A stretch of DNA of 64,000 bases, taken from Doris montereyensis (taxonomy: Eukaryota > Mollusca > Gastropoda > Nudibranchia > Dorididae). A program made the position numbers and the translations under genes. A model generated the notes under the pieces. It had not been told where the DNA came from. It saw nothing but the letters and a program-made list of their open reading frames with translations, and did no database searches. Positions 10,101 to 28,334 of the stretch are shown here, in pieces. How positions within the stretch are numbered: the first letter of the stretch is position 1; each line of letters begins with the position of its first letter. The DNA is taken from the NCBI GenBank assembly GCA_037039925.1, contig JAXRKP010000370.1:175001-239000 (forward strand), given 5' to 3'.

Positions 10101-13100
10101 TGAGAATGAAGAGTGACAGTAAGAAAAGTGACGTAAAGAAAAAATAGCGAAAGGGAGAAAGAACTGAGAAAAGAAAAGTGACAGTAAAAAAAAAGTCACA
10201 CACATAACCCTAACCTCTACTTTGTGATTCATGTCTCTGCAGTTGGATCCATGGAGGAAGCAAGAACGGTAAACTCTACAGGCGATTACCTGGTGTCACC
10301 TGACCACTTTCATGACGTCGTAAACACTCTTCATACGTGGAATCTTAAGCACGAGGAGCTTATAGCGGACGTATCAGGGGTACGCATTTAGAATTACCCC
10401 CGTGATGTCATAGACACATGTTATACGTAGAAACGTCAGCACGAAGCGGTTATAGTAGACGTATCAGGGTACGCATTTAGAATTACCCCCGTGATGTCAT
10501 AGACACATGTTATACGTAGAAACGTCAGCACGAAGCGGTTATAGTAGACGTATCAGGGTATGCATAGTAAATTCTCTTCGTGACGTCAAAGACACACGTC
10601 ATACGTAAAACCTTAGCACGAAGCGCTTAATAGAGGCATCATGATAGGTATTTAAAATTACCCCCGTGACGTCATAGACATATGTCATACATAGAAATTT
10701 CAGCACGAAGTGCCTATAGTACATTTATAATGGTAGGTATTTAAAATTACCTTCATGACATTATCAACATATTTTATACATGAAATCTTAGGCACGAAGG
10801 ATTTATAGTGGACATGACATGTATTATGTATTTAATCTTACCTTGGTGTCATTATAATCACGTTTCATAGGTGCGATCTAAAGAGTTTCTTCTGCTCCCT
10901 TATCCCGAGGTAGGCTTTCTTTGTTTATTTTTTTATTTTTCATCTTAAAAATGTATATTAATGTGTATGTATTTGCAGGTTTCTAAACAACCAAACGTTA
11001 CAGAGAAGTCGGAGACGCAAAAGACAAGCAGTCATTACACACGATTATTTTAGGTATCGATATCTTCATCTTGAAGAGGTAAGCTTACGGTCCACGGAGT
11101 TTTGTATTTTATGAATGAAAAGGACGAATGAAAGTTTTGCAAAGTACATCGATTCATTCAATTATTATTCAGCCATGCATTCATTGATTATGTATACATG
11201 CAGGCATGTGTACATATTTAGACACAACACACGCGCGCGCACATGTGTATACAATATCCATATAATTAAATTGCTGCCTACCTACCTACCTATCTACCTA
11301 CCTACATATCTACAGACATACATACATACATACATAGATACACACATACATACCTACATACGTATTTACGTACACACATACACACACAGATATATACATA
11401 CGTATGTACGTACACACATATACATACATACCTACATACGTACGTACGTACACACATACATACCTACATACATACGTACGTACACACATACATACCTACA
11501 TACGTAGTACGCACACACATACATACCTACATACGTACGTACGTACACACATACATACCTACATACGTACGTACGTACACACATACATACCTACATACGT
11601 GTACGTTCGTACACACATACATACCTACATACGTATGTACGTACACAGATACATACCTACATACATAAGTCACGCACACACATACATACACACATACATA
11701 CACACCTACATTTGTACGTACGTACACACATACATACACATACGTACGTACGTACACACATACACACACACACACACATACCTACATACACACATACGTA
11801 CATACATACATGGAGATACAATGTGTTTATTCTTTTAGGGGTGAATGGTTGTAAAATATAATGCACAGTTAAGATCTAGAAAGAGCGAATAGTCAGTGAA
11901 ATGTAATTGCTAGTCATGACAAATATGAAGGAAATGACGTATTGAATAATAATAGCCCCATTGGGTAAAGACGAGACAAATACAAGTAAATAACATTAAA
12001 TAATATCAAAGTTTAAAAACCCTAGGAACAAAGACGAGACAAATGAAATAACATTAAATAATATCAAAGTTTAAAGACACATAGGAACAAAGAAGAGACA
12101 AATACAATGACATTAAATAATTGACAAATACAAGTAAATAACAAAATAATATCAAAGTTTAAAAGATAGGAAAAGACGAGACAAATACAAGTAAATAACA
12201 TTAAATAATATCAAAGTTTAAAACACATAGGAACAAAGACGAGACAAATACAAGGAAATAACAAAGTAGAGACAAATTAAATAATATCAAAGTTTAAAGA
12301 CACATAGGAACAAAGACGAGACAAATACAAGTAAATAACATTAAATAATATCAAAGTTTAAAGACCCATAGGAACAAAGACGAGACAAATACAAGTAAAT
12401 AACATTAAATAATATCAAAGTTTAAAGACCCATAGGAACAAAGACGAGACAAATACAAGTAAATAACATTAAATAATATCAAAGTTTAAAGACCCATAGG
12501 AACAAAGACGAGACAAATACAAGGAAATAACATTAAATAATATCAAAGTTTAAAAACCCATAGGAACAAAGACGAGACAAATACAAGTAAATAACATTAA
12601 ATAATATCAAAGTTTAAAGACACATAGTAAATAACATTAAAAAGACAAAGAGACAAATACAAGACAAATAAATAACATTAAATAATATCAAAGTTTAAAG
12701 ACCCATAGGAATAAAGACGAGACAAATACAAGTAAATAACATTAAATAATATCAAAGTTTAAAGACACATAGGAACAAAGACGAGACAAATACAAGTAAA
12801 TAACATTAAATAATATCAAAGTTTAAAGACCCATAGGAACAAAGACGAGACAAATACAAGGAAATAACATTAAATAATATCAAAGTTTAAAGACACATAG
12901 GAACAAAGACGTTGTGATGACTCGGTAGTCCAGAAGCAAGGTGTCGGCCTATCAACCAAAAGATAGTGGGTTCGAGTCCCGTCGACTGTTGAAAAAATGT
13001 TCTTTTTGTTCGCACAATCTACCCCCCCCCCCCACCTCCTTTCCCCTGATCCAGATAGGTGGATCGATACCTAGTCCCATCAGAGACGGACGATAAAAAG

Positions 13101-16100
13101 GAGGTCCTGTGTTCAGATCACAACGCTCTGTGCACGTTGAAGATCCCTTGGCTGTTTACAGGGTAGACCTAGCAAATTAAATATCCTACCAAAAAAATAA
13201 ACCGAGATCACCTTATTTGTGGATGTGGTTAAATCAAATCAAATAATTTAAAAAAACAAAATCCATTTGTTGCTGTTGTTACAGTTGTGTGTCTGTCTGT
13301 CTGTCTGCCTGTCTGTCCCTCAGATTGTGCAGTTCCTTCGTCACATTCGGGACAAAGCCAATGATGTCCACATCCAGCTGGGCTCCGCTGGTCGTTCCTT
13401 TGAAGGGAGGAGACCCCCTATGTCAAGGTCAGTCGATAGAAATGCATACCATAATCTTAGTTAGTCTCAACGTTAGTGTCTTATTTACTTACTTACGTTG
13501 ATAGCTAGTTAGTCGGTTAGATACGTAGCTATGTATTAGCTATTTATTGGTGTCGACAAAACGTAAAAGCAGAATGTTAGTTAGTCGGAAAGTTAGTGTT
13601 ATCTATTTATCTTACTTTTACTTTCATACTTTTAGCTAGTTAGTCGGTTAGATACTTAGCTATTATTTATTTACTGTCGACAGAAACTAAAGCAGAATCT
13701 TACTTACTGACTGTGATAGTTAGTTAGTCGGTTAGATACGTAGCTATGTATTTGCTATTTATTGGTGTCGACAGAAACGTAAAGCAAAATCTTAGTTAGT
13801 CCGAACGTTAGTGTGATATCTATTTACTTAATTACTTACTTACTAACTTACTTATTTATTTACTTACTTACTTTGATAGCTAGTTAGTCAGTTAGATACG
13901 TAGCTATTTATTAGCTATTTATTGGTTTCGACAGAAACGTAAAGCAGAATCTTAGTTAGTCGGAACGTTCGTGTCTTATTTACTTAACTTACTTTGATAG
14001 CTAGTTAGTCAGTTTGATACTTAGCTAGCTTAATAATTAGCTATTTATTGGTTTCGACAGAAATAGGTTGTTGGTCTTATTTACTTACTTATATTAGTCA
14101 GTTAGAACGTACTTAGTCAATTAGTCCCCTCCATCCTTCCTTCCTTCCTTCCTTCCTCCTTCCTTCCATCCTTTCTTCCTTCATTCCTTCCTTCCTTTCT
14201 TCCATCCAATACGGCCCTTTAGAGCCGGATGTTATCCCGGTTTTTATAGCGTAAAGTATAAAGGTAAAATTCGTTCGATGCAATTACCACCCATAGAGCC
14301 GGACTTATCTCGGTTTCTATAGCGTGAAGTAAAAAGTAAAAATTCCTTCGATGCCATTACCGCCCCATAAAACGAGCTTATCCCGATTTTTATAGCATCA
14401 AGTAAAAAAGGGAAGCTCCTTCAATGCCATCACGGCTCATAGAACCGGAGTTTATGCCGGTTTCTATAGCATGAAATAAAAAGTAAAGTTTTTTCAAGCA
14501 ATTACGGCCCATAGAGCCGGGACTTATCCTGGTTTCTACAGTGTGAAATAAAAAGTAAAGTTCCTTCAAGGCCATTACGGTCCGTAGAGCTGGAGCTTAT
14601 CCTGATTTCTATAGCATGAAGTAAAAAAAATAAAAATTCCTTCAATTCCATTACGGCCCAAAGAGCCGGAGCTTATCCGGTTTCTAAATTCTATAGCGTG
14701 AAGTTCCATCAATGTCAAAAAATGTAAGTTTCCTTCAATGTCATAACGGCCCATAGAGCCGAAGCTTATCCGGTTTCTAAATTCTATAGCGTGAAGTAAA
14801 AATGTAAGTTCCTTCAATGTCATAACGGCCCATAGAGCCGAAACTTATCACGGTTTCTATAGCCTGAAGTAAAAAAAGTAAATTTCCTTCAATGTCATTA
14901 CAGCCCAAAAGCCTAAGCGTATCCTGGTTTCTATAACGTGAAGTGGAACAGGGGATAATGCCCCCCCTCCCCCCTCTTGACAAGACACTAATCTGACGCA
15001 GGTTTTTACTCCAAAGCTAGTGCTTGTACCCATTTGCACATGTGTAAAGTGGGAAAATTTAGTGTTCATTGTCTTTTCTAATGAACACAACGGCGAGCCT
15101 AGCTTTGCTAGAATTCGAACCTGGGACTTCATTATCCCCAGTCCGACAGCCTAATCACTCGACCATCGACGCCATTATGTCAGCTAGTTCATTAGTAAGT
15201 TAACTAGCTTGCAACATGTTACCTTATTTACTTAGTCAGTTGCTGACTTTCTCAGTGTGTTAGTTAAATAGTTACTTACTTAGTTATAACCTGCTAACTT
15301 ATCTAGTTGGTCATATCTTTACCTACATACTTGATTAACTAGTTACATGTAATTCATCGATATTTACAATAAGCCCTCGTAACTTCAGTATCGAATATTG
15401 ACTCGATCTAACAATCGTACTTGCCCTGACGCGTATCCGGTACTGTGGTGTCTGAGTTTACCGCAGTCAGAAGTTAGAAACCCAGCATTATTATAACAAT
15501 AAATCATAGGCCACGTGTGCATCCGAACATGTTTCTTATTGATATCTCGCATCTCATCATCCATTCAGATTTCAAGTGAGCCCAGCAAGAAGAAACCAAT
15601 TCTATTTATAGACGCTGGAATTCACGGCAGGGAATGGATTTCTCCCGCCATGGCCATTGAAATGATTCACAGAGTAAGTACACGCGTTAATGTTCCACAG
15701 TGGTTTTGGCTTTCAGTGAGCAGCGATGTTTACATTTTGATATATTATGGTTACGTTGGTAAACGTTACACTTAAACGCTTCTCTTGTCATGTTGTGACA
15801 ATATAATCTGTGTGTTCGAATGAAGGGGAATGGAAGATTTTGAATTAAACTCAAAACGCCACACGTGTGTATGACACAATACCATAGTTTGTTGCCAAAT
15901 TGAAATTGAAATAAATAGGAAAGTTGTCGACAGCACCGTCCATGGCAAAACGTTAGGCTTCTTGTAGGTTCATATTCAGATGACTGTTGATAAAGTTTTG
16001 ATAAAAAGCAATAAAACTGCAATTATAGGCCAATAACTAGTAATGACAACTGTTGATAAAATTTTGATAAAAAGCAATAAAACTGCAGTAGGACAATAAC

Positions 16101-19100: not shown

Positions 19101-20082
19101 AATTATTGGCTGCCAAAGTTTCAATCTACTGTATTATGTAACCATATGCTTATCTTTGATAATCATTCCAGTTGGCACTAAACCAAGAGAGTGACCCCGT
19201 TGTGAGCAGCCTTCTAGACAAGTTCGACTGGCTTATCGTTCCTGTTGTTAACCCTGATGGATACGAGTTCACGTTCAAACCTGAGGTAACCACGCTGTTT
19301 ATGATCCAGTGTTTATACGTAGCTCTGCCCGTCTGCCTGTTTGTTCATAATGTTTGTGTCTTCTGTGTGTCTTTCTGTAAGAGGTTTTTTTGCTGTCTGT
19401 CTGTCTGTATCTGTCTTTGTCCCTTTATACATTATACACACAGAATCAATTCTATTCAGGCTCTGATCAAATTCTTGAATGTTTGTTCATTTAATGTGAT
19501 TGTTTTTAAACGTAAAATAAGTGTATTTAGTAAGGGGGTTTTTGCTGTCTTCATTCTGTAAATCTGTCTTTTCCGTTGGAAAATATGAATATCTTTATGG
19601 GCTAACTCCGTAAACAAATTTTTATTTTCAATCAGGTTTATCTCAGGATCACTCCTAGCAGTACCAAAAGTGAAAAACCAAAAGCTAAAAAAATCAATCA
19701 TAATACATATCTATCCTTTGATTTGCCATCATAAATGACGTGGCATGTTTACTTTTTATATTAATTGTTTGACACGTTGTTGTAGGTGGTCAATCGACTG
19801 TGGCGTAAATCCAGAAACCCTCATTACAGCAAAGAACAAAGATGCTATCGGTGTGGACCTCAACAGGAATTTTGGCTTTGCATGGAATGACAATCCTTGT
19901 AAGAAAACGTTTCAAAATATAATTTTCATAATTTTCCCTGCATACAAAAATGTTGAGTTATGACTTATTCCATCTGAAAAAAGATGCGCGGTAAGATTAT
20001 TTGTTTGCACTCTTTCCATTTTCTCATAATTTGGCTCTGCTCTCTTTCTCTCTCTTTCTCTCTCTTTCTCTCTTTCTCTCTT

Positions 20083-20152
<70 letters not shown>

Positions 20153-23100
20153 TCTCGAAATCCAACTCAATCTCTCTCTCTCTCTCTCTCTTGTGTCTCT
20201 CTTTCTCTCTTCTCTTTTATAACAATCTATTCTCTCCCTCCCTCTCTCCCTCCCTCCCTCCTGTATCTATGTCTCTCTCTCTCTCTTATCTCCCTTGATA
20301 ATCATCCTCCCTCCCTCCCTCCTCTCTCTCCTCTCTCTTCTCTCTCTCAGTCTCCCTCCCTCCTTTGTGAGCTCTCTCTTCTCTCTCAAGTTCTCTCTCT
20401 CTCTCTCTCTCTCTCTCTGTTGTTAACCCTGATGGATAGGGAGTTCACGTTCAAACTAACTCTTTAAGACCTGTTTCTGATCCACCTCTCTCATATTTAT
20501 TATTATATCTCAGAACTCTCTCTGCCTGTTTGTTCATCTCTGTTTGTCTTTCGGTCTCGGCTGTCTGTGTGTCTTTCTGTAAGAGGTTTTTTTTCTGTCT
20601 GTCTGTCTGTATCTGTCTTTGTCCCTTTATATCAAGGATATTTATCACACAGAAGTACTTTGTCAAATAACACTTTAAGACCGTTCAGCTGATACCACCT
20701 CATCCATAAACAATATAGAACTCGAGAAAACATTGGACAACTTTTACTGGGGTTTCTGTTGACTCGGCTGAAACAATGTGCAGTCAGTTAAAATTGAAAT
20801 CAGACGTCACGGTGAAGATTCTGTGAAATTGGTGTAAAAAACGATTAGTTTTGCCACAATGTGTACAGCCTGTTGTTGTCATTTACTTTACAATATTACG
20901 ACAGGTAAAAAAATCAATCATAATGGCAATGCCGGTGACATACATATGCAAATCGTCCAGTGTTGACTATTTACCATTCATAAATGAAAAAAAACTGAGA
21001 AAAGACTGTTAGTAGACTTTTGAATACCTATGGCAAAGCCTTTAATTTGTCTTGTAACCACGAAGCGTTGTAAATCAATTGAATAAGATTAAATTTATGG
21101 GAAAATACAACAAGGAAATCAAATTCCTTGAAGGCCCATACAGCCCTTACAGCCGGAATCTATCCCGGTTTCTATAGCGTGAAGCGGAACAGGCCGGGCA
21201 GTGGACAGGTAATCACCTGTACGGGGAGTAGATGATCCCGCCCTCCACGAGTCTCTTGCTGCCTTGCAGGTACGTCTTGGCTGACCAAAGGCTTAGGAGT
21301 TAACACTGAAAGAAGACAACCTGCTGCCTTGCAGATCGGTCTTGACAGACCAAAGACTAAGGGGAGTTAACCCTGACAGAAAATAACAACATGCTGCCTT
21401 GCAGGCTGGTCTTGAATGACTAAAGGCTAAGGGAGTTAACCCTGACAGAAAATAACAAGGCCCGGTAGGGGCCTCAAGGTGGCAGTCCCACCATCTTCCT
21501 AGGGTACAGTGGGCTAATCCCTGCTTATCCAAAACAACCTGATTCAAAGTAATATATACAATGATATACCCGGCTTGAACTTTCGAAGACGACTCTGGAA
21601 AAGAACACGGACTGTGATTTTTGGAACATGGAATGTTAGGGCAATTAATGGAAAGGAGTTAGAATTAGCTAAAGAAATGGAAAAATTCAAAGTAGACATT
21701 TTGGCCATTACAGAAACAGAGAAAAAAAGGACAAGGAATAGAAAATGTAGGACCAAATCATACTTTAATCTTCTCAGGAATAGATGTCAAAGATAGAGCT
21801 AGAGCAGGAGTAGGACTCTAATGCATAAAAAGGCAAAAAATGCTACTAGAAAGTTCAAAATTTGTAAGCCCACGGCTATTAGAGGTAAATATTAAACCAA
21901 AAGGAAGACAAATTAAATTAGTAATAGCTTATGGGCCAAAGAAAAAAAAGATATCTTCGAAAATGATTTACAAATAGCTGCAGAGAATCTCAAACCCAAA
22001 CAGGAATTAATGGTTTTATGAGATTTAAATGCTAGAGTAGGCAACAATGTAGAAACATCAGGAGGAGTAATAGGTAAAGAAGGAGAGACAACAACTTCTC
22101 CAAATGGAGAGAGACTGATAGATTTTTGCCTAAAGAATAACTTGAAAATAGCTAACACATTTTTCCTCACAAAGATATCCACAAATATACAAGAGTAAAT
22201 GAAGACAAATGTGAAAAGTCAATGATAGACTACATAATAGTTAGCAGCTATTTGATGCTAGAGTAAGCGGAGGAGCAGAAACATTTAGTGATCATCACCT
22301 AGTGATAGCCAAAATGAGATTATTAACTGAAGAAAACAAACAGAAAAGGAAAGAGAAGAAAGCTACTAAACTCAAAGTAGAACTAAATAAACCAATAGTA
22401 AAACAGATATACCAATCCAGGATTAAAAGATATATCAGTGAAAGGCAGATGGATCTGAAGGAAAGCACAATAGAAGAAAAGTGGCAAATATATAAAGAAA
22501 CACTCCTCAGTTGTACTGAAGAGGTCTGTGGTAGGAAACAAATGAAAGGAGATAGGAAAAGAATAGCGTGGTGGAATGAGAATGCCAAGACTAAGATAAT
22601 AAAAAGAAGGATGCCTGAAAGAAATACTTGCGAACAAAGAGACCAGAGGATAGGATAGATTACATGAGTAAAAGAACTATCGCCAAAGAGGAAGTTGGGA
22701 AAGCAAAACAGGTACAGTGGGAAGAGTTTGGACAAAGACTTCAAGAAAGCTATCAAGGAAATCAAAAAGCTGTTATGGGGAGCAATGTAGAGCATGAAAA
22801 AGACCAACGCCAAGGGAAAATAATGGAAACGTGGAGAAAAGCATTTTCAACAATTACATAATCCCTCCAGAACATATGAAAAAGGAGTACAGATAAATTA
22901 TTAAGAATAACAAGTAATCGAGATGAGACAGCTGAAGATGTGGACATCTCTATGGAAGAACTTCAAACAGCTGTAGAAAAGTGAAATTCGAAAAAGCCCC
23001 AGGAGCAGATCAAGTTTATCCAAAAATGATTAAAAACCAAGGGAGAGAGGCAGACAAACTATTACAGGCAATATGTCAACAAGCATGGAAGCCCAAACAG

Positions 23101-26100
23101 GTGCCAGATGACTGGAAAAAGGGAACAGTAGTACCAATACGCAAGAAATTATCAACTATGGAATGCTCTATAGAGGGATATCACTACTTAGCGTACCAGG
23201 AAAAGTGTATGCCAAGACTCTGGAAATGAGACTAAGGAAATGAGTAGAGGATCAGATTAAAGAATACCAGAGCGGATTTAGACAGGGAAGAAGTGTACAA
23301 GATCACATATTTACAATTAGACAAATAATTGAAAAATTCATTGAGAGAAACATTGATTTGCACCTGCGTTTTATTGACTTACAAAAGGCATTTGACACTG
23401 TGATGGGGGACAAACTATGACATTCCTTAAAAGAACACAACGTAGAGCAAAATTGAATAAGAAGCCATTAAAAGATTTTACAATAAACCAACATGTGCAG
23501 TGAGAGTAGCTGGAAATGTATCTGCAGAATTTGATGTAGATACAGGAGTAAGACAGGGTTGTATCCTAAGTCCTCTTTTTGTTTATCACATTTATGGATT
23601 CAGTCGCAAAGTCATCCTCAAAAATGAAGAAAATGAATGTAGGTAGGTGGAAACTCAAACCAGTATCAATGCTTTCATTTGCTGATGATTTAGTTCTGTT
23701 TGGAAAATCAGAAATGGACATCAAGTCAAATATCACCATAATAAATAATGAATTAAATAAAAGAGGAATGAGAGTAAATACAAAGAAAACCAAAACAATG
23801 CTAGCAACTAAGGAATCTTAAAACACAGAATTTAGAACAAGTTCAAAGCTTCAATTACTTAGGAGTAAGGATTAACTCCGGAGGGAAAACTAAGAGAAGA
23901 AATCAGCCAGAGAATCCAAAAGGCAAGTACAATATATAACCATCTAGGAAAAGCATTTGTAGGTAAACAAGAATTGTCAACAAAAACCAAAATGGCAGTA
24001 TACAAAACAGATTATTCTCCTTTTCTCCTCTATGGTAATGAAACCTGGACCTTAGACAGTATGGAATACAGTAGAGTACAAGCAGCCGAAATGAAATATC
24101 TAAGAAGAGTAATAGGGAAAACTAAAAAGAGACAAAATCAGAAACACAACAATAAAAGATCAAACCAAAGGAGATAGCACAAACACTAAGATAGAAATGA
24201 ATCAACTGAAATGGTTTGGGCATGTTAACAGAATGAATGACAATAGCTAAATCAGTATACAGTGCTAAATCTCAAGGTAAAATACCAAAAGGCAGACCTC
24301 GAAGAAAGTGGGAAGAAGCTATATAAAGGCATTAACGCAAAGAAATTTAACTTTCACGGAAGGAAACAGAAAATGCCAGGACAGGGCAGCCTGAAGAAAG
24401 ATCATTTCGGGCATCTAAAACCATACACCGGAAGGTAGAATGGGAACTGATAAAGAAAGAAAGAAAGAAGCGGAACATGTAATAATAATCACATCCTGAA
24501 TAGGACGCTAATCTGTCGCAAGTTTTTACTTCCAAACTGTTGTTGGTATCCATTTGTTTCTGGGTCGAGTGGGGAAAATGCGTGTTAACTGTTTCTCCCA
24601 AGGAACACAATGCCGAACCTAGCTTTGCTATGATTCGAACCCAGGACCTCGCCATCCCAGCAACATACCCACAAGGCCTCCGACGCCACAAATTAAATTT
24701 GACTGAATTCTCATTCATTTATGTCTCTTCCTTCCCCAACCCAACACCCCGTACTTTGGTCACAGTTTTTGGCGGCAGCAGTGACCCTTGCAGTGGCACT
24801 TATTCTGGCCCGTACAGTTTCTCGGAACCGGAAACAAGAAACTTGAGGAATCTGCTGCTAATCAACCGTGACACCATCCTTGGCTACGTTTCCTTACATT
24901 CTTTTGGACAATTCTTCTTGTACCCATGGGGATTCAGTAGTGAAGTTGACTTGGAAGACGAGCGAGATCTGGTGAGTTAGACTCATCTTGAGCATCCTTC
25001 ATGATCCATTTAAATGACACACTCTCTTTGGTCTGTGAATCTTGAAGAACGATAACACATCATGGTAGGTTTGATTGCGAGACCCCAAGAGTAACAAGAA
25101 GGACAGGGAATTTTTGGTCTCTCCATCATTCTCTCTTCAAATCTCCAGTATAGTAACAAAGCAAGAAGCGTGCACAGCCCAACAATGTCAAGGCAGTCCT
25201 GTCTCGTGCCTGTTACGGCGTGTTTTTTGTTATTACATGATGTACATATACTTCGATTTGTTTCTGTTCTTCCTGATTAACTCTAAGCCTAGAGCACCAT
25301 GATTCCTTTTCAGTTATAAATCTTGATATAGTTTTATTCAGATACTGGGTTTTTTTTTCTCTGGTGGATATGAATCTCTGCCTCTAAGTGGAATCGTTAG
25401 GAATGTAATCTTTATGACGGTTCATTAATGTAAACTCTTTGATGGCCCATGTCATGAACTTAGCCTTTATCACGGCCCATGTATCTAGCCTTTATAACAG
25501 CATGTTAGAAGTGTACTTTTCAGGAAACATAATAATGTAGCCTTTATGACAGCCTGTGAATGCAGTCTCTGTGACAGCCTACTGACGTAGCCCTTATGAC
25601 GGCCTATAAATGCAATCAATAAAACAGCCTACTTTAAATGTAGTCTCTATGAGAGCCTATGAATGCAGTGTCTATAACAGATTACTAATGTAGCCTCTAT
25701 GACAGCCTATAAATGCAGTCTCTATAACAGCCTACTAATGTAGCCTTTATGACAGCCTATCAATGCAGTCTCTATAACAGTCTACTATAGTAATGTAGCC
25801 TATATGACGGCATATCAATGCAGTCTCTATAACACCCTACTAATGTAGCCTGTAGGACAGCCTATAAATGCAGTCTCTATAACAGCCTACTAATGTAGCC
25901 TTTATGACAGCCTATAAATGCAATCTCTTTAACAGCATACTAATGTAGCCTTTATGACAGCTTATGCATGCAGTTTCTATAACATCCTACTAATGTAGCC
26001 TTTATGACAGCCTATGAATGTAGCCTTTACGACAGCATATGAATGCAGTCTCTATAACAGTCTACTATAGTAATGTAGCCATTATGACAGCATATGAATG

Positions 26101-28334
26101 TAGCCTCTATAACAGCCTACTAATGTAGCCATTATGACAACTTATAAATGCAGTCTCTACAACAGCCTAGTAATGTAGTCTCTATAACAATCTACTAAAA
26201 TAATGTAGCTTTTATGACAGCCTATGAATGTTGTCTCAATGATAGCTTGTGAATGCAGTCTCTATGACATGATAGCCTATGAATGTAGTCTTTATGACAG
26301 GCTATGAATGTAGCCTTTATGACAGTCTATAAATGTTATCTCTATGACAGCCTGTGAATGTAGTCTTCATAACAGCCTATGAATGTAGTCTTTATGACAG
26401 GCTTTATGAATATAGTCTTTATGACAGCCTATGAATGTAGTCTTTGAATGTAGTCTTTATGACAGGCTATGAATGTAGTCTTTATGACAGGCTATGAATG
26501 TAGTCTTTATGACAGCCTATGAATATAGTCTTTATGACAGCCTAGTCTTTGAATATAGTCTTTATGACAGCCTATGAATGTAGTCTTTATGACAGCCTAT
26601 GAATATAGTCTTTATGACAGCCTATGAATGAATATAGTCTTTATAACATAATGTAGCCTATGAATATAGTCTTTATGACAGCCTATGAATGTAGTCTTTA
26701 TGACAGCCTTTATGAGGCTTTATGAAGCCTAAGTCTATAACACCCTATGAATGTAGCCTGTATGAATGAATGTCTTTATGACAGCCTATGAATGTAGTCT
26801 TTATGACAGCCTATGAATGTAGTTTTGACAGCCTATAATGTAGTCTTTATGACAGCCTATGAAGTCTTTATGACATCCTAGTGGAATGTAGTCTTTATGA
26901 CAGCCTATGAATGTAGTCTTTATGACAGGCTATGAATGTAGTCTTTATGACAGCCTATGAATGTAGTCTTTATGACAGCCTATGAATGTAGTCTTTATGA
27001 CAGCCTATGAATGTAGTTTTTATGACAACTTATGAATGTAGTCTTTATGACCTTCTGAATACTTAACCTTTATGACAACTAAGAATGTAACCTTTATGAC
27101 AACCCTAAGAATGTAATATATATATATGAGCCTATGTAATGTAGTCTATTATAACTATGAATGTAGTCTTTATGACAGCCTATGAATGTAGTCTTTATGA
27201 CAGGCTATGATGTAACCTTTATGACAGTCTCTTATGACAGCCTATGACAGCCTATGAATGTAGTCTTTATGACAGCCTATGAATGTAGTCTTTATGACAG
27301 CCTATGAATGTAGTCTTTATGACGACCTATGAATGTAGTCTTTATGACAGCCTAATGTAGTCTTTATGACAACCTATGAATGTAGTCTTTATTTGAATGT
27401 AGTCTTTATGACAGCCTATGAATATAGTCTTTATAACAGCCTATGAATGTAGTCTTTATGACAGGCTATGAATATAGTCTTTATGCTAGTCTTTTAGCCT
27501 ATGAATGCGTGAATGTAGTTTTTATTATATGAATATGACGTCTTTATGAAAGAAATGTGCATGAATGACTGCCTAAAAATTATTATGACAGCCTATGATG
27601 TCAGTTCCTGACAGCCTGAAAGTCTTTATGACGACCTTTCTTCAGAAAACCATGAATGGAACAAACTAAACCTATATTTAGAATCCTGGCTGTGGGTAGA
27701 TTATATGTGGAAAGTAGGCTTTATGACGACCATGAATGTAACCTTTATGACAGCCTAAGAATGTAACCTTTATGGGTCTAAGAAAAATACCAGAATGTAA
27801 CCTTTATCTAGTGTCTTGTAAGGGGATCAAAACAAACAAACAAACAAACAAACAAACAAACAAACCAGTGTGAAACGCTAGGCCTTGAATTTCTCTCTTT
27901 TGAATGATTCTTCTCGAACAGTGTAAAGAAAAATCATTCATGAATTTATTTCTTTAGACTTGATACAATCCTCATTTCTATTTTTGGTGAGGAATTCCTT
28001 TTTCAGTTCATTTTTTATTTCCATTGCTTGGAATGTCCTTTATAAACAGCCTATTGAATGTATCTTTAACAGCCTAAAATGTATTGCACTGTGTGTTTTG
28101 ATAGTTTGTGTGCTTGTCTTATTGGCCTACGAATTACCTCCGTTTCTGTCATTCGTCTCCGATGGGCCCTTCTGACGACTATGTCCGTGGAACCAAGTAT
28201 CTCTAGAACTCGAAACGTCCATGTATGGTTTCCTCTTGCCTGAGAACAATGTCAAGGACATCGTGACAGACACATGGGCGGGGCTTCGAACTCTCCCTCC
28301 CCAAATTGCGTTCAAAAAATCGTACAGGCCATAG
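7056..28334 (+). CDS. M14A zinc procarboxypeptidase gene (multi-exon, span)
   Basis: Metallocarboxypeptidases of family M14A are secreted zymogens that remove C-terminal residues from peptides, using one zinc ion. The gene is assembled from exons at 7056-7130, 10243-10379, 10979-11078, 13324-13427, 15569-15673, 19172-19285, 19786-19898, 24766-24971 and 28165-28334, plus a weak candidate at 25149-25240. Visible in order are the propeptide, a run of basic residues ending RRKRQ, zinc ligands His and Glu in IHGREW, NPDGYE, the substrate-binding Asn-Arg in LNRNF, the third ligand His in SLHSFGQ, SDDY and a YGFLLPE C-terminus. The Asp pair in SDDY corresponds to the pocket position that favours basic residues in B-type enzymes, so a B-like preference is possible but inferred. 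Exons 1, 2, 4, 7 and the last each need a one-base correction to stay in frame. No signal-peptide exon or promoter was recognised upstream. Family assignment is secure; substrate and activity are not. Confidence 0.9.
7135..7700. other. intron sequence, no element recognised
   Basis: First part of the intron after carboxypeptidase exon 1. Apart from T- and G-rich runs at 7250-7330, nothing is recognised. At about 7740-7765 a tRNA B-box-like ggttcaaaccc precedes the SINE pair. Confidence 0.4.
7866..8117 (-). mobile_element. SINE family 1, minus copy
   Basis: Contains tgtctccgatgggactagg and, at its right end, the reverse-oriented tRNA-like head with gggctcgaacccac. It lies head to tail with another copy at 8118. 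Confidence 0.85.
8118..8402 (-). mobile_element. SINE family 1, minus copy
   Basis: Starts again at a truncated body (taccctgtaaacagccaagg) and ends in actaccgagtcgcca. With the preceding copy it forms a direct tandem of SINEs, with no intervening unique DNA. Confidence 0.85.
8611..8851 (+). mobile_element. SINE family 1, plus copy
   Basis: Head gaggactcggtagtacaga, B-box-like region gggttccaaccccc, body up to gataaaaagg. The 3' tail is truncated. Confidence 0.8.
8940..10195. repeat. ~61-bp purine-rich minisatellite interrupted by a SINE
   Basis: Units contain aaaggggaaaagagctgaga and gacggaaaggaatagtg. The array runs 8940-9420 and 9846-10195. The gap holds a minus-strand SINE of family 1 (9508-9838). 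It ends shortly before carboxypeptidase exon 2. Confidence 0.9.
9508..9838 (-). mobile_element. SINE family 1, minus copy inside minisatellite
   Basis: Runs from tgattttactcacatccaca (reverse of the tail) to ggactactgaatccccggtc (reverse of the head). Repeat units of the ~61-bp array lie on both sides. Confidence 0.85.
10243..10379 (+). CDS. carboxypeptidase exon 2 (propeptide)
   Basis: The acceptor is ctctgcag. The first codons read LDPW and the rest reads EARTVNSTGDYLVSPDHF, then a stretch containing LHTWNLKHEELIADVS. This matches the family's propeptide layout (L-D-F-W-x-E-P ... V-x-P-x-x ... N-x-K-x-E-x-L-I). The two parts lie in different frames, one base apart, near 10255. The 3' end has GGGG, whereas tandem copies just downstream have GGG. 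With GGG the donor would be GG|gtacgc and the phase would fit exon 3, so one G may be surplus. The 3' half of this exon is the first unit of an 89-bp tandem array. Confidence 0.7.
10300..10870 (+). repeat. 89-bp tandem array seeded by carboxypeptidase exon 2
   Basis: The 3' half of exon 2 from catgacgtcgtaaac to gtatcagggg is followed by copies at 89-bp spacing: cgtgatgtcatagacac at 10401 and again at 10490, then increasingly diverged copies to about 10870. Each copy retains the exon words, including the gtatcaggg/gtacgc donor region in the first two. Later copies carry stops and are noncoding. Confidence 0.92.
10979..11078 (+). CDS. carboxypeptidase exon 3 (propeptide end, activation site)
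   Basis: Acceptor atttgcag, donor gtaagc; after one leftover base, 33 codons are open. The sequence starts FLNNQTLQ, then RSRRRKRQ, then AVITHDYFRYRYLHLEE. In this family the mature enzyme begins just before the first conserved helix (here Y-L-H-L-E-E). The basic run is therefore the activation site. R-R-K-R fits a furin/proprotein-convertase recognition pattern rather than a single tryptic residue, so activation in the secretory pathway is plausible (inference). Confidence 0.88.
11270..11820. repeat. ACAT/CCTA/CGTA tetranucleotide array
   Basis: Compound repeat built from cacacatacatacctacata and cgtacgtacg blocks. Frames on both strands (His/Thr-rich and Val/Cys-rich) are repeat artefacts. 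Confidence 0.95.
11935..12912. repeat. 64-bp minisatellite related to the tRNA-Met SINE tail
   Basis: About 14 units containing cataggaacaaagacgagac and aataacattaaataatatca. The word order (cccrtaggaacaaagacKagacacatacaa) matches the arm of the SINE at 48,705-48,750. A family 1 SINE starts directly at its right end. Confidence 0.9.
12915..13250 (+). mobile_element. SINE family 1, full-length plus copy
   Basis: Best copy of the family. The head is gatgactcggtagtccagaa with a canonical B box gggttcgagtccc; the body has tagtcccatcagagacgga and tgtgcacgttgaagatccc; the tail is ggatgtggttaaatcaaatc. Length about 335 bp. Confidence 0.9.
13324..13427 (+). CDS. carboxypeptidase exon 4 (start of catalytic domain)
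   Basis: Acceptor ccctcag, donor AAG|gtcagt. It reads IVQFLRHIRDKANDVHIQL and then GSAGRSFEGR, the usual G-R-S-x-E-G-R segment before the substrate strand. The length is 104 nt, although both neighbouring junctions require phase 0. Past GRSFEGR the expected ...TPYVK appears only after shifting by one base, so one base is missing around 13408-13412. A degenerate tandem array begins directly after the donor. Confidence 0.88.
13428..14110. repeat. ~120-bp degenerate tandem array starting at the exon 4 donor
   Basis: Units contain ttagttagtcggaacgttag, tagctatttattggtgtcga and cagaaacgtaaagcagaat. The first unit overlaps the exon 4/intron boundary (gtcgatagaaatgcatacc...cttagttagt). CCTT and CTTC runs follow to about 14210. 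Confidence 0.85.
14212..14960 (-). repeat. 74-bp tandem array of a SINE family 2 tail
   Basis: About ten units with catagagccggacttatc, cggtttctatagcgtgaagt and ttccttcaatgccattacgg. These words form the 3' end of SINE family 2, and the array passes directly into one such SINE on the minus strand. Confidence 0.93.
14900..15175 (-). mobile_element. SINE family 2, minus copy
   Basis: Read on the minus strand: a head with gatggtcgagtgattaggct, a B box ggttcgaattc, then agcaaagctaggctcg, a body with cacatgtgcaaatgggtaca and the tail ctatagaaaccaggatacg. The head resembles a class II tRNA (Ser/Leu-like gtcgagtgg-ttaaggc). Other copies: 21128-24690 (interrupted), 46000-46310 and 54673-54973. Confidence 0.88.
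15569..15673 (+). CDS. carboxypeptidase exon 5 (zinc motif HxxE)
   Basis: Acceptor ccattcag, donor gtaagt; 35 codons with an intact frame. After ISSEPSKKKPILFIDAG comes IHGREWISPA, the M14 signature. The His and Glu three residues apart are the first two zinc ligands (His69 and Glu72 in bovine CPA numbering). Bovine-type enzymes have Ala where this has Gly, a common substitution. This exon alone fixes the family. Confidence 0.95.
15960..16110. repeat. two diverged direct copies related to the 51-bp satellite
   Basis: gactgttgataaagttttga and caactgttgataaaattttg, each followed by taaaaagcaataaaactgca. They share the core of the satellite at 16,810. Confidence 0.75.
16300..16500. repeat. ~47-bp pyrimidine-rich tandem repeat
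   Basis: About four copies of tctattccatcttctttctt with ttatcttttgtcaa. Confidence 0.9.
16810..18690. repeat. 51-bp satellite in carboxypeptidase intron 5
   Basis: More than 30 copies of gtattcaggcaactgttgat-aaagttttaacacg-tttagtaaagaagcttc. The unit is a multiple of three, so 17-residue repeat frames appear on both strands; they are not genes. Copies right of 18,290 are diverged and shorter (ctgttgatcaagttttgaat). Confidence 0.97.
18690..18840. repeat. direct duplicate of 19,456-19,645
   Basis: cgtaaaataagtgtatttag, then cgttggaaaat and aatcaagtttatc recur, slightly changed, around 19,509, 19,575 and 19,632. The satellite array runs into this copy, so 19,456-19,535 may be its founder. 18,840-19,170 is otherwise unremarkable intron. 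Confidence 0.7.
19172..19285 (+). CDS. carboxypeptidase exon 6 (NPDGYE segment)
   Basis: Acceptor cattccag, donor GAG|gtaacc; 38 codons with an intact frame. It contains LLDKFDWLIVPVVNPDGYEF, where V-x-N-P-D-G-Y-E is a hallmark of M14A enzymes. The 3' half of this exon together with about 150 bp of the following intron is duplicated, in damaged form, at about 20418-20640. Confidence 0.95.
19786..19898 (+). CDS. carboxypeptidase exon 7 (substrate-binding arginine)
   Basis: Acceptor gttgtag, donor T|gtaaga. It starts VVNRLWRKSRNPHYSKEQRC and continues, one base shifted, as IGVDLNRNFGFAWNDNP. The W-R-K-x-R and L-N-R-N motifs carry the arginines that bind substrate and polarise the carbonyl (Arg127 and Asn144/Arg145 in bovine numbering). 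The 113-nt length is one more than the phase allows, and removing one T after AGATGC restores the expected R-C-I-G-V-D-L-N-R-N-F. Confidence 0.92.
20040..20420. repeat. CT microsatellite with CCTCC variants
   Basis: Long CT tracts interrupted by TTT, CCCTCC and short unique words. It leads directly into the damaged copy of exon 6. Confidence 0.95.
20418..20640 (+). pseudogene. damaged duplicate of carboxypeptidase exon 6 and its donor flank
   Basis: The stretch gttgttaaccctgatgga repeats exon 6 but then reads TAG instead of TAC, giving a stop. The following intron sequence of exon 6 (gtctgcctgtttgttcat, gtgtctttctgtaagagg and ctgtctgtctgtatctgt) recurs in the same order, with CT-rich bits and other short segments in between. 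The donor gtaacc is lost. It sits directly after a CT microsatellite and is not expected to be spliced in. Confidence 0.8.
20645..21120. other. intron, no element recognised
   Basis: AT-rich sequence between the exon 6 duplicate and the SINE/LINE nest. A short stretch aaaaaatcaatcataat also occurs at about 19,688, so part of it belongs to the same duplication. Confidence 0.4.
21128..24690 (-). mobile_element. SINE family 2 split by a LINE
   Basis: The tail part (acagccggaatctatcccgg ... gcgtgaagcggaaca) lies at 21128-21191. The body and head (acgctaatctgtcgcaagtt ... atgattcgaacccagg) lie at 24478-24690. Joined, they form one SINE in the same orientation as that at 14,900. Confidence 0.88.
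21192..24466 (+). mobile_element. APE-type non-LTR retrotransposon, near full length, frames broken
   Basis: It is flanked by the duplication gaagcggaaca (21181-21191 and 24467-24477). The 5' region (21,194-21,540) has about three ~65-bp repeats containing ggctaagggagttaaccctg. The endonuclease shows GTWNVR (about 21,620), DLNARVGNN (about 22,023) and SDHHLV (about 22,287). The reverse transcriptase shows APGADQVYPKM (about 22,998), SGFRQGRSVQDH, RQGCILSPL and FADD (23,678-23,689). A C-terminal part has LLYGNETWTL and LKWFGHVNRMN. The 3' end has (GAAA)n. Many frameshifts and stops interrupt the coding region, so this copy is dead or the sequence carries indel errors. Clade not assigned. Confidence 0.92.
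24766..24971 (+). CDS. carboxypeptidase exon 8 (third zinc ligand)
   Basis: Acceptor ggtcacag, donor CTG|gtgagt; after two leftover bases 68 codons are open. It reads FGGSSDPCSGTYSGPYSFSE, then PETRNLRNLL, then GYVSLHSFGQFFLYPWGF. G-x-S-x-x-P-C-S-x-x-Y-x-G-P is diagnostic, and the His of S-L-H-S is the third zinc ligand (His196). The position after H-S is Phe where vertebrate enzymes have Tyr198. The exon lies just after the SINE and LINE insertions of the preceding intron. Confidence 0.95.
25149..25240 (+). CDS. possible carboxypeptidase penultimate exon (weak)
   Basis: One exon of roughly 30-40 codons is expected between the preceding exon and the C-terminal one. After the acceptor-like atctccag the sequence reads YSNKARSVHS in phase. 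A shifted frame gives NNVKAVLSRACYGV, vaguely like the helix and Y-G-x-x-Y segment expected here. There is no clear donor, and the catalytic-site tyrosine region is not recognisable. This is a candidate only, and the true exon may have been lost or overrun by the adjoining 25-bp satellite. Confidence 0.25.
25420..27830. repeat. 25-bp satellite with 50-bp dimers at its left side
   Basis: The unit is tgaatgtagtctttatgaca + gccta. At 25,550-26,230 two monomer types alternate (aatgcagtctctataacagc and aatgtagcctttatgacagc), giving a dimer of about 50 bp; to the right mainly one type remains. Past 27,500 unrelated words appear between monomers. Confidence 0.95.
28165..28334 (+). CDS. carboxypeptidase last exon (C-terminus, stop)
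   Basis: The frame reads GPSDDYVRGTKY and then, one base shifted at 28200/28201, LELETSMYGFLLPENNVKD, ending in a segment with DTWAGLRTLPPQIAF and a TAG at 28332-28334. S-D-D-[WY] ... E-L ... Y-G-F-L-L-P-E is the classic C-terminal layout, and the Glu of the E-L pair would be the catalytic base (Glu270). The usual E-L-R-D-T reads E-L-E-T here, one codon shorter, so this site is either altered or damaged by sequence error. The 5' boundary is uncertain because no convincing AG acceptor lies just upstream. The 25-bp satellite ends a few hundred bases before it. Confidence 0.8.

Follow-up and report, generated by a model that had tools for sequence, protein, structure and literature searches.

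In a carboxypeptidase gene of Doris montereyensis, an 89-bp segment that takes in the end of a propeptide exon, the adjoining splice donor and a short part of the following intron has probably been duplicated in tandem; the copies in the intron most likely do not contribute to splicing and drift as non-coding sequence. Judged from the sequence, we put the probability of this reading at roughly 0.8. The duplication would have arisen by replication slippage or unequal exchange, with the coding exon, here called E1, as the founder rather than a later recipient of the repeat, and the whole array would be removed together with the intron.

E1 is located at 10243..10379 of the window, i.e. the whole stretch of 64,000 nucleotides that was analysed, between an acceptor CAG at 10240-10242 and a donor GT at 10380-10381, and like all units and exons described here it lies on the forward strand. 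The last 67-77 bases of E1, the GT donor and a short intron piece recur downstream at a spacing of about 89 bp. TRF reports an 89-bp array at 10313-10751 and an additional 89-bp row at 10641-10809, and when two repeat families are combined, the copy spacings counted from 10313 are 90, 89, 89, 86, 89, and 91 bp. Unit 0 (10303..10402) consists of the 3′ half of E1, the donor and 23 nt of intron and has its left homology edge at about 10303-10313. It is followed by unit 1 (10403..10491), unit 2 (10492..10580), unit 3 (10581..10666, 86 bp), unit 4 (10667..10755), unit 5 (10756..10846, 91 bp), and a degenerate, marginal unit 6 (10847..10935). The E1 part 10313-10380 was locally aligned to each unit and the result compared with 2000 dinucleotide shuffles: units 1-5 reach scores of 57, 57, 45, 39, and 40, respectively, with none of the 2000 shuffles as good in each case, unit 6 reaches 23 (2 of 2000 as good), and the 89 bases upstream of unit 0 reach only 13 (870 of 2000 as good). 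To the left of 10313, 4-7 of 10 positions are identical at -1 to -10 and 0-1 of 10 at -11 to -20. The homology stops inside E1 near 10303-10313, and therefore the unit contains 67-77 exon bases followed by the donor and the first intron bases. The earlier note had described E1 as the first unit of an array with the donor inside the unit, followed by at least six copies of the exon end at 89-bp steps, and both the repeat search and the shuffled alignment agree with it: the similarity is far above that of shuffled sequence for five clear copies, and the sixth is marginal. The GGG in units 1 and 2, where E1 has GGGG (10377-10380), was likewise found. The rightward decay of the copies holds roughly, as body identity to the E1 part falls from 0.76 to 0.60 overall, but not as a clean gradient, with values of 0.76, 0.76, 0.75, 0.68, 0.69, and 0.60 for units 1-6, so that unit 3 is still at 0.75 and unit 5 exceeds unit 4. 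Units 1 and 2 do not differ in their bodies (66/66 positions identical), which together with one-base frame breaks suggesting an imperfect consensus could point to copies that are an artefact of misassembly. We regard this as highly improbable, since all unit pairs other than units 1 and 2 differ by 19-53% in their bodies, which misassembly would not produce; the possible error is confined to how many identical units there are.

The assignment of E1 to a carboxypeptidase propeptide, already made in the earlier note, was confirmed by profile search: the conserved frame of E1, combined with E2 (10979..11078; open frame, ends read by eye), which encodes the propeptide end, a basic RRRKR stretch and the start of the mature enzyme, passes the cutoff of Propep_M14 (PF02244) with 26.3 vs. 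22.1 bits (E 8.1e-6). The matched stretch of E1 extends across the left edge of the array. In the same kind of search, 10314-10379 alone gave no Propep_M14 match, and the 3′ part of E1 with four residues of E2 alone scored 16.6 bits, below the cutoff. In pairwise comparison, E1 has weak matches to two propeptides, that of P0094 (Nucella; E 0.85) and that of P0095 (E 3.5). Among the 34 candidates of a protein search with the propeptide part, none reached an E of 0.001 or lower. The reading frame does not continue from E1 into E2, since, read by eye, the donor of E1 lies at phase 0 of the conserved frame whereas phase 2 is needed for E2, possibly due to a sequence error. A further frame change may be present inside E1 at 10260-10263 (after LDPWRK, 10243-10260), to which a weak match to P0095 and a gain of 1.2 profile bits point.

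Since the propeptide profile match spans the array's left edge inside E1, E1 is likely the founder of the array. The opposite origin, in which a dispersed satellite that already existed became exonised in the gene, would fit a window that is rich in arrays, but it is hardly credible: E1 is a propeptide exon by profile, even if the part inside the array stays below the cutoff when taken alone, and a search of the assembly (513,438,767 bases in 3500 contigs) with a 676-bp query gave a single match, the locus itself, with one candidate scored and with genome match counts being lower bounds, as very common words were skipped. Within the limits of that search the array is locus-specific, with no sign of the many genomic copies of a dispersed satellite, and the idea was dropped on account of this one match in 513 Mb. 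Units 1 and 2 have in common an exact 94-nt run at offset 89, which starts in the G run of E1 (10378-10471 recurring at +89), and from this run it follows that the array grew recently. In an unrooted tree of the units, E1 has a branch of 0.06-0.09, compared to 0.11-0.81 for the longer branches of units 3-6, and units 1 and 2 pair with a support of 83 for the whole unit and 100 for the body. The tree as a whole is weakly supported, the other nodes having supports of 40-82. Nor does the order of the array follow age simply, unit 3 being as near to E1 as unit 1; both points count against the reading of a founder exon with drifting copies. The differences between E1 and unit 1 are spread evenly over the codon positions (6, 5, and 5), as expected if unit 1 is not coding. 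Taking E1 and its copies together, we read the sequences as those of a founder exon, presumably neutral copies and ongoing local turnover. Each of the units 1-5 has a stop at the position of the Trp codon of E1 (10338-10340); these stops, at 10428-10783, are of three different codons, TAG, TAA, and TGA.

The human interferon-induced gene 6-16 (IFI6) has a minisatellite with a repeat unit of about 12 bp. Turri, Cuin and Porter reportedly described in 1995 that its repeat units provide splice donor sites. Four later articles cite this work (PMC4526556, PMC3618361, PMC2915984, and PMC2572611), and according to the first of these, two downstream repeat units of human IFI6 act as donors and lead to isoforms (PMC4526556). 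The Doris array shares with IFI6 that minisatellite units carry splice donor sites, and its tandem units start in the exon and include the exon's donor. Using a weight matrix that is not fitted to this species, we obtained donor scores of 3.4 for E1 and of 0.4-7.1 for E2-E7. Five GT sites downstream of E1 and up to 10960 score above 2, namely 10469 (3.4), 10558 (3.1), 10733 (3.7), 10871 (2.8), and 10910 (5.4). Units 1, 2, 4, and 6 thus carry GT sites of 3.4, 3.1, 3.7, and 5.4, respectively, compared to 3.4 for the donor of E1, a level that only 1.5% of all GT sites in the window attain; both observations argue against copies with no splicing role. Units 3 and 5 lack a GT in the alignment column of the donor.

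In the conserved frame of E1, the first stop past the donor is a TAG at 10389..10391, and it would be included by all five downstream GT sites above 2. In the alternative frame, which applies if the G run had three Gs, a stop follows in unit 1 (GYAFRITPVMS*). With stops in both possible frames, none of the five donors can therefore lengthen the propeptide, and their use would truncate the product. The suggestion in the earlier note that downstream donors could alter the propeptide did not hold up for this reason, and the idea of a longer propeptide was ruled out. Whereas the human downstream units give isoforms, the better downstream donors in Doris are predicted to bring in a stop, so that in-frame isoforms are not among their possible products; splicing at them is predicted to result in a truncated transcript that is probably targeted by NMD. 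Thus, it is very unlikely that the array supplies the gene with a functional set of alternative donors, after the manner of human IFI6, to tune the length of the propeptide or make unproductive transcripts, despite the donor inside the unit, the sites scoring 3.1-5.4 and the precedent (PMC4526556); unproductive splicing is the form that any such use could still take. Since a stop signal would be added by splicing from the copies, local tandem duplication has likely left the array behind as a harmless by-product. RNA folding of the whole array gave a z of -1.68, with 4 of 100 shuffles as good. A hairpin at the donor of unit 0 (GGGGTA with TACCCC) is a weak one, as 17 of 200 shuffles are equally good, and for units 1-4 the corresponding numbers are 77, 105, 18, and 6 of 200, five of the seven units having been folded including unit 0.

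The gene that harbors the array looks damaged in this assembly, by real decay or by sequence error, which the earlier note had not anticipated. Its exon ends were read by eye. Downstream of E2 it comprises E3 (13324..13427), the 3′ end of which misfits the phase of E4 by eye, E4 (15569..15673) and E5 (19172..19285), both with an open frame, E6 (19786..19898), which has a frame break near 19846 and gives two matches to the Aplysia protein P0001 in different frames, E7 (about 24766..24971), which is open and 80% identical to P0001 over 70 residues, and a fragment of the last exon (28165..28310) with a frame break and an internal loss. E7 passes the Peptidase_M14 cutoff with 55.1 bits (cutoff 21.6). 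Among the best named relatives, a carboxypeptidase B-like protein of Aplysia californica ranks first, with 76% over 48% of the query, and a protein of Biomphalaria glabrata gives 69% over 35%; they point to a heterobranch gastropod as the probable source. For the exon corresponding to residues 245-277 of P0093 there is no match within the window. The interval between E7 and the last-exon fragment, its expected place, contains a 2-kb array with a period of 25 bp (25534-27507). A decayed LINE is located between E6 and E7 at 21518-24177, with 38.7 bits for RVT_1 and 18.6 bits, below the cutoff, for an endonuclease-like part. Concerning upstream exons, there is no convincing match to the start of P0094 or P0095 within the window (best E 0.094), and the 20 kb before the window contain none for these two or for P0093 and one weak match to P0041 (E 0.32). 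Searching the assembly with P0093 gave four matches (nine candidates scored), out of which three are exons of this gene, with 72, 62, and 61% identity, and the fourth is a distant relative on another contig with 32%.

The host gene is either a working gene with consensus errors or a pseudogene that is the only copy found. That the whole gene is a pseudogene, with the exon and its copies as decaying remnants, is a serious prospect, if a somewhat less than even one. The alignment frame breaks in E6 and the last exon, the phase misfits at the donors of E1 and E3 as read by eye, the weakly supported break inside E1 and the lack of a match in the window for the exon of P0093 residues 245-277 are consistent with it. 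However, several of the breaks are one base long, as consensus errors can be, E2, E4, E5, and E7 are open with E7 so similar to its Aplysia counterpart, and with no other close copy among the nine candidates scored in the assembly this is possibly the only one. Moreover, a pseudogene would be a statement about the host gene and not about the array, and is compatible with tandem duplication of the exon end followed by drift of its copies.

Arrays that start inside a conserved exon had been called rare in the earlier note, and for this locus we cannot follow that view. TRF arrays with a period of at least 20 account for 22% of the window; in the region 8000-29000 their share is 37%. Array birth is thus common here. 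When the eight exons are shifted around 8000-29000, a mean of 3.35 have at least 30 nt in arrays, compared to one observed; at least one exon lies in an array in 99% of the shifts, and one or none in 10%, in a test that ignores selection and covers one window. Given the array cover of 37% and the 99% of shifts that touch an exon, the overlap with E1 is not surprising. Overlap of arrays and exons is not commoner here than chance, and the shortfall is not significant. The window as a whole has 112 tandem-repeat rows, with arrays making up 26% of it and 40% of 8000-29000. It also contains inverted copies (21194-21627 and 58440-58005) of a 437-bp element, 93% identical and with an internal tandem repeat of 66-70 bp.

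The coding exons of this gene might repeatedly seed intronic arrays because their ends at the donor side are prone to duplication; selection on the exon would then preserve a single unit as a constant master copy, and arrays would regrow from it. The basis for this is that two of the eight exons (E1 and E5) have duplicated ends and a third (E3) has a repeat at its donor, and we consider it very unlikely. The 3′ end of E5 and the following intron are partly duplicated 1.2 kb downstream, behind E6 (19242-19429 vs. 20417-20631), with 95% identity over 40 nt in the exon part and 76% over 217 for the whole. At E3, a diverged direct repeat (13432-14063) begins at most 5 nt from the donor and includes no exon bases; its segment from 13432/13433 to 13490 is matched at 13767 and 13928.

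The array is real and locus-specific, and its kind is already known through the human 6-16/IFI6 precedent. A partial tandem exon duplication with splice motifs has been described as a route of intron evolution (PMC2891723). Like that route, the Doris locus involves exonic sequence that was locally duplicated along with a donor motif, the copy ending up as intron, but here the duplication was repeated into an array and no new intron position is seen, since the homologues align by eye without insertion (DVSG/FLNN vs. DVQR/LLEN of P0095). With ordinary intronic minisatellites the array has in common its unit length, identical neighboring units and a degenerate far edge; it differs from them in that a coding exon's end serves as its first unit. 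The repeats of a prawn lectin lie within coding regions (PMC7536079). No report of an exon-seeded array in a mollusc was found in the literature searched, which is no proof of absence. No known principle is changed by the array, which is predicted either to leave the protein unaffected or to truncate it. It offers a clear example from nature of how a minisatellite in an intron can be founded by the end of an exon; its units are of several different ages, one duplication being very recent, and in this series of copies their fate as splice sites could be followed.
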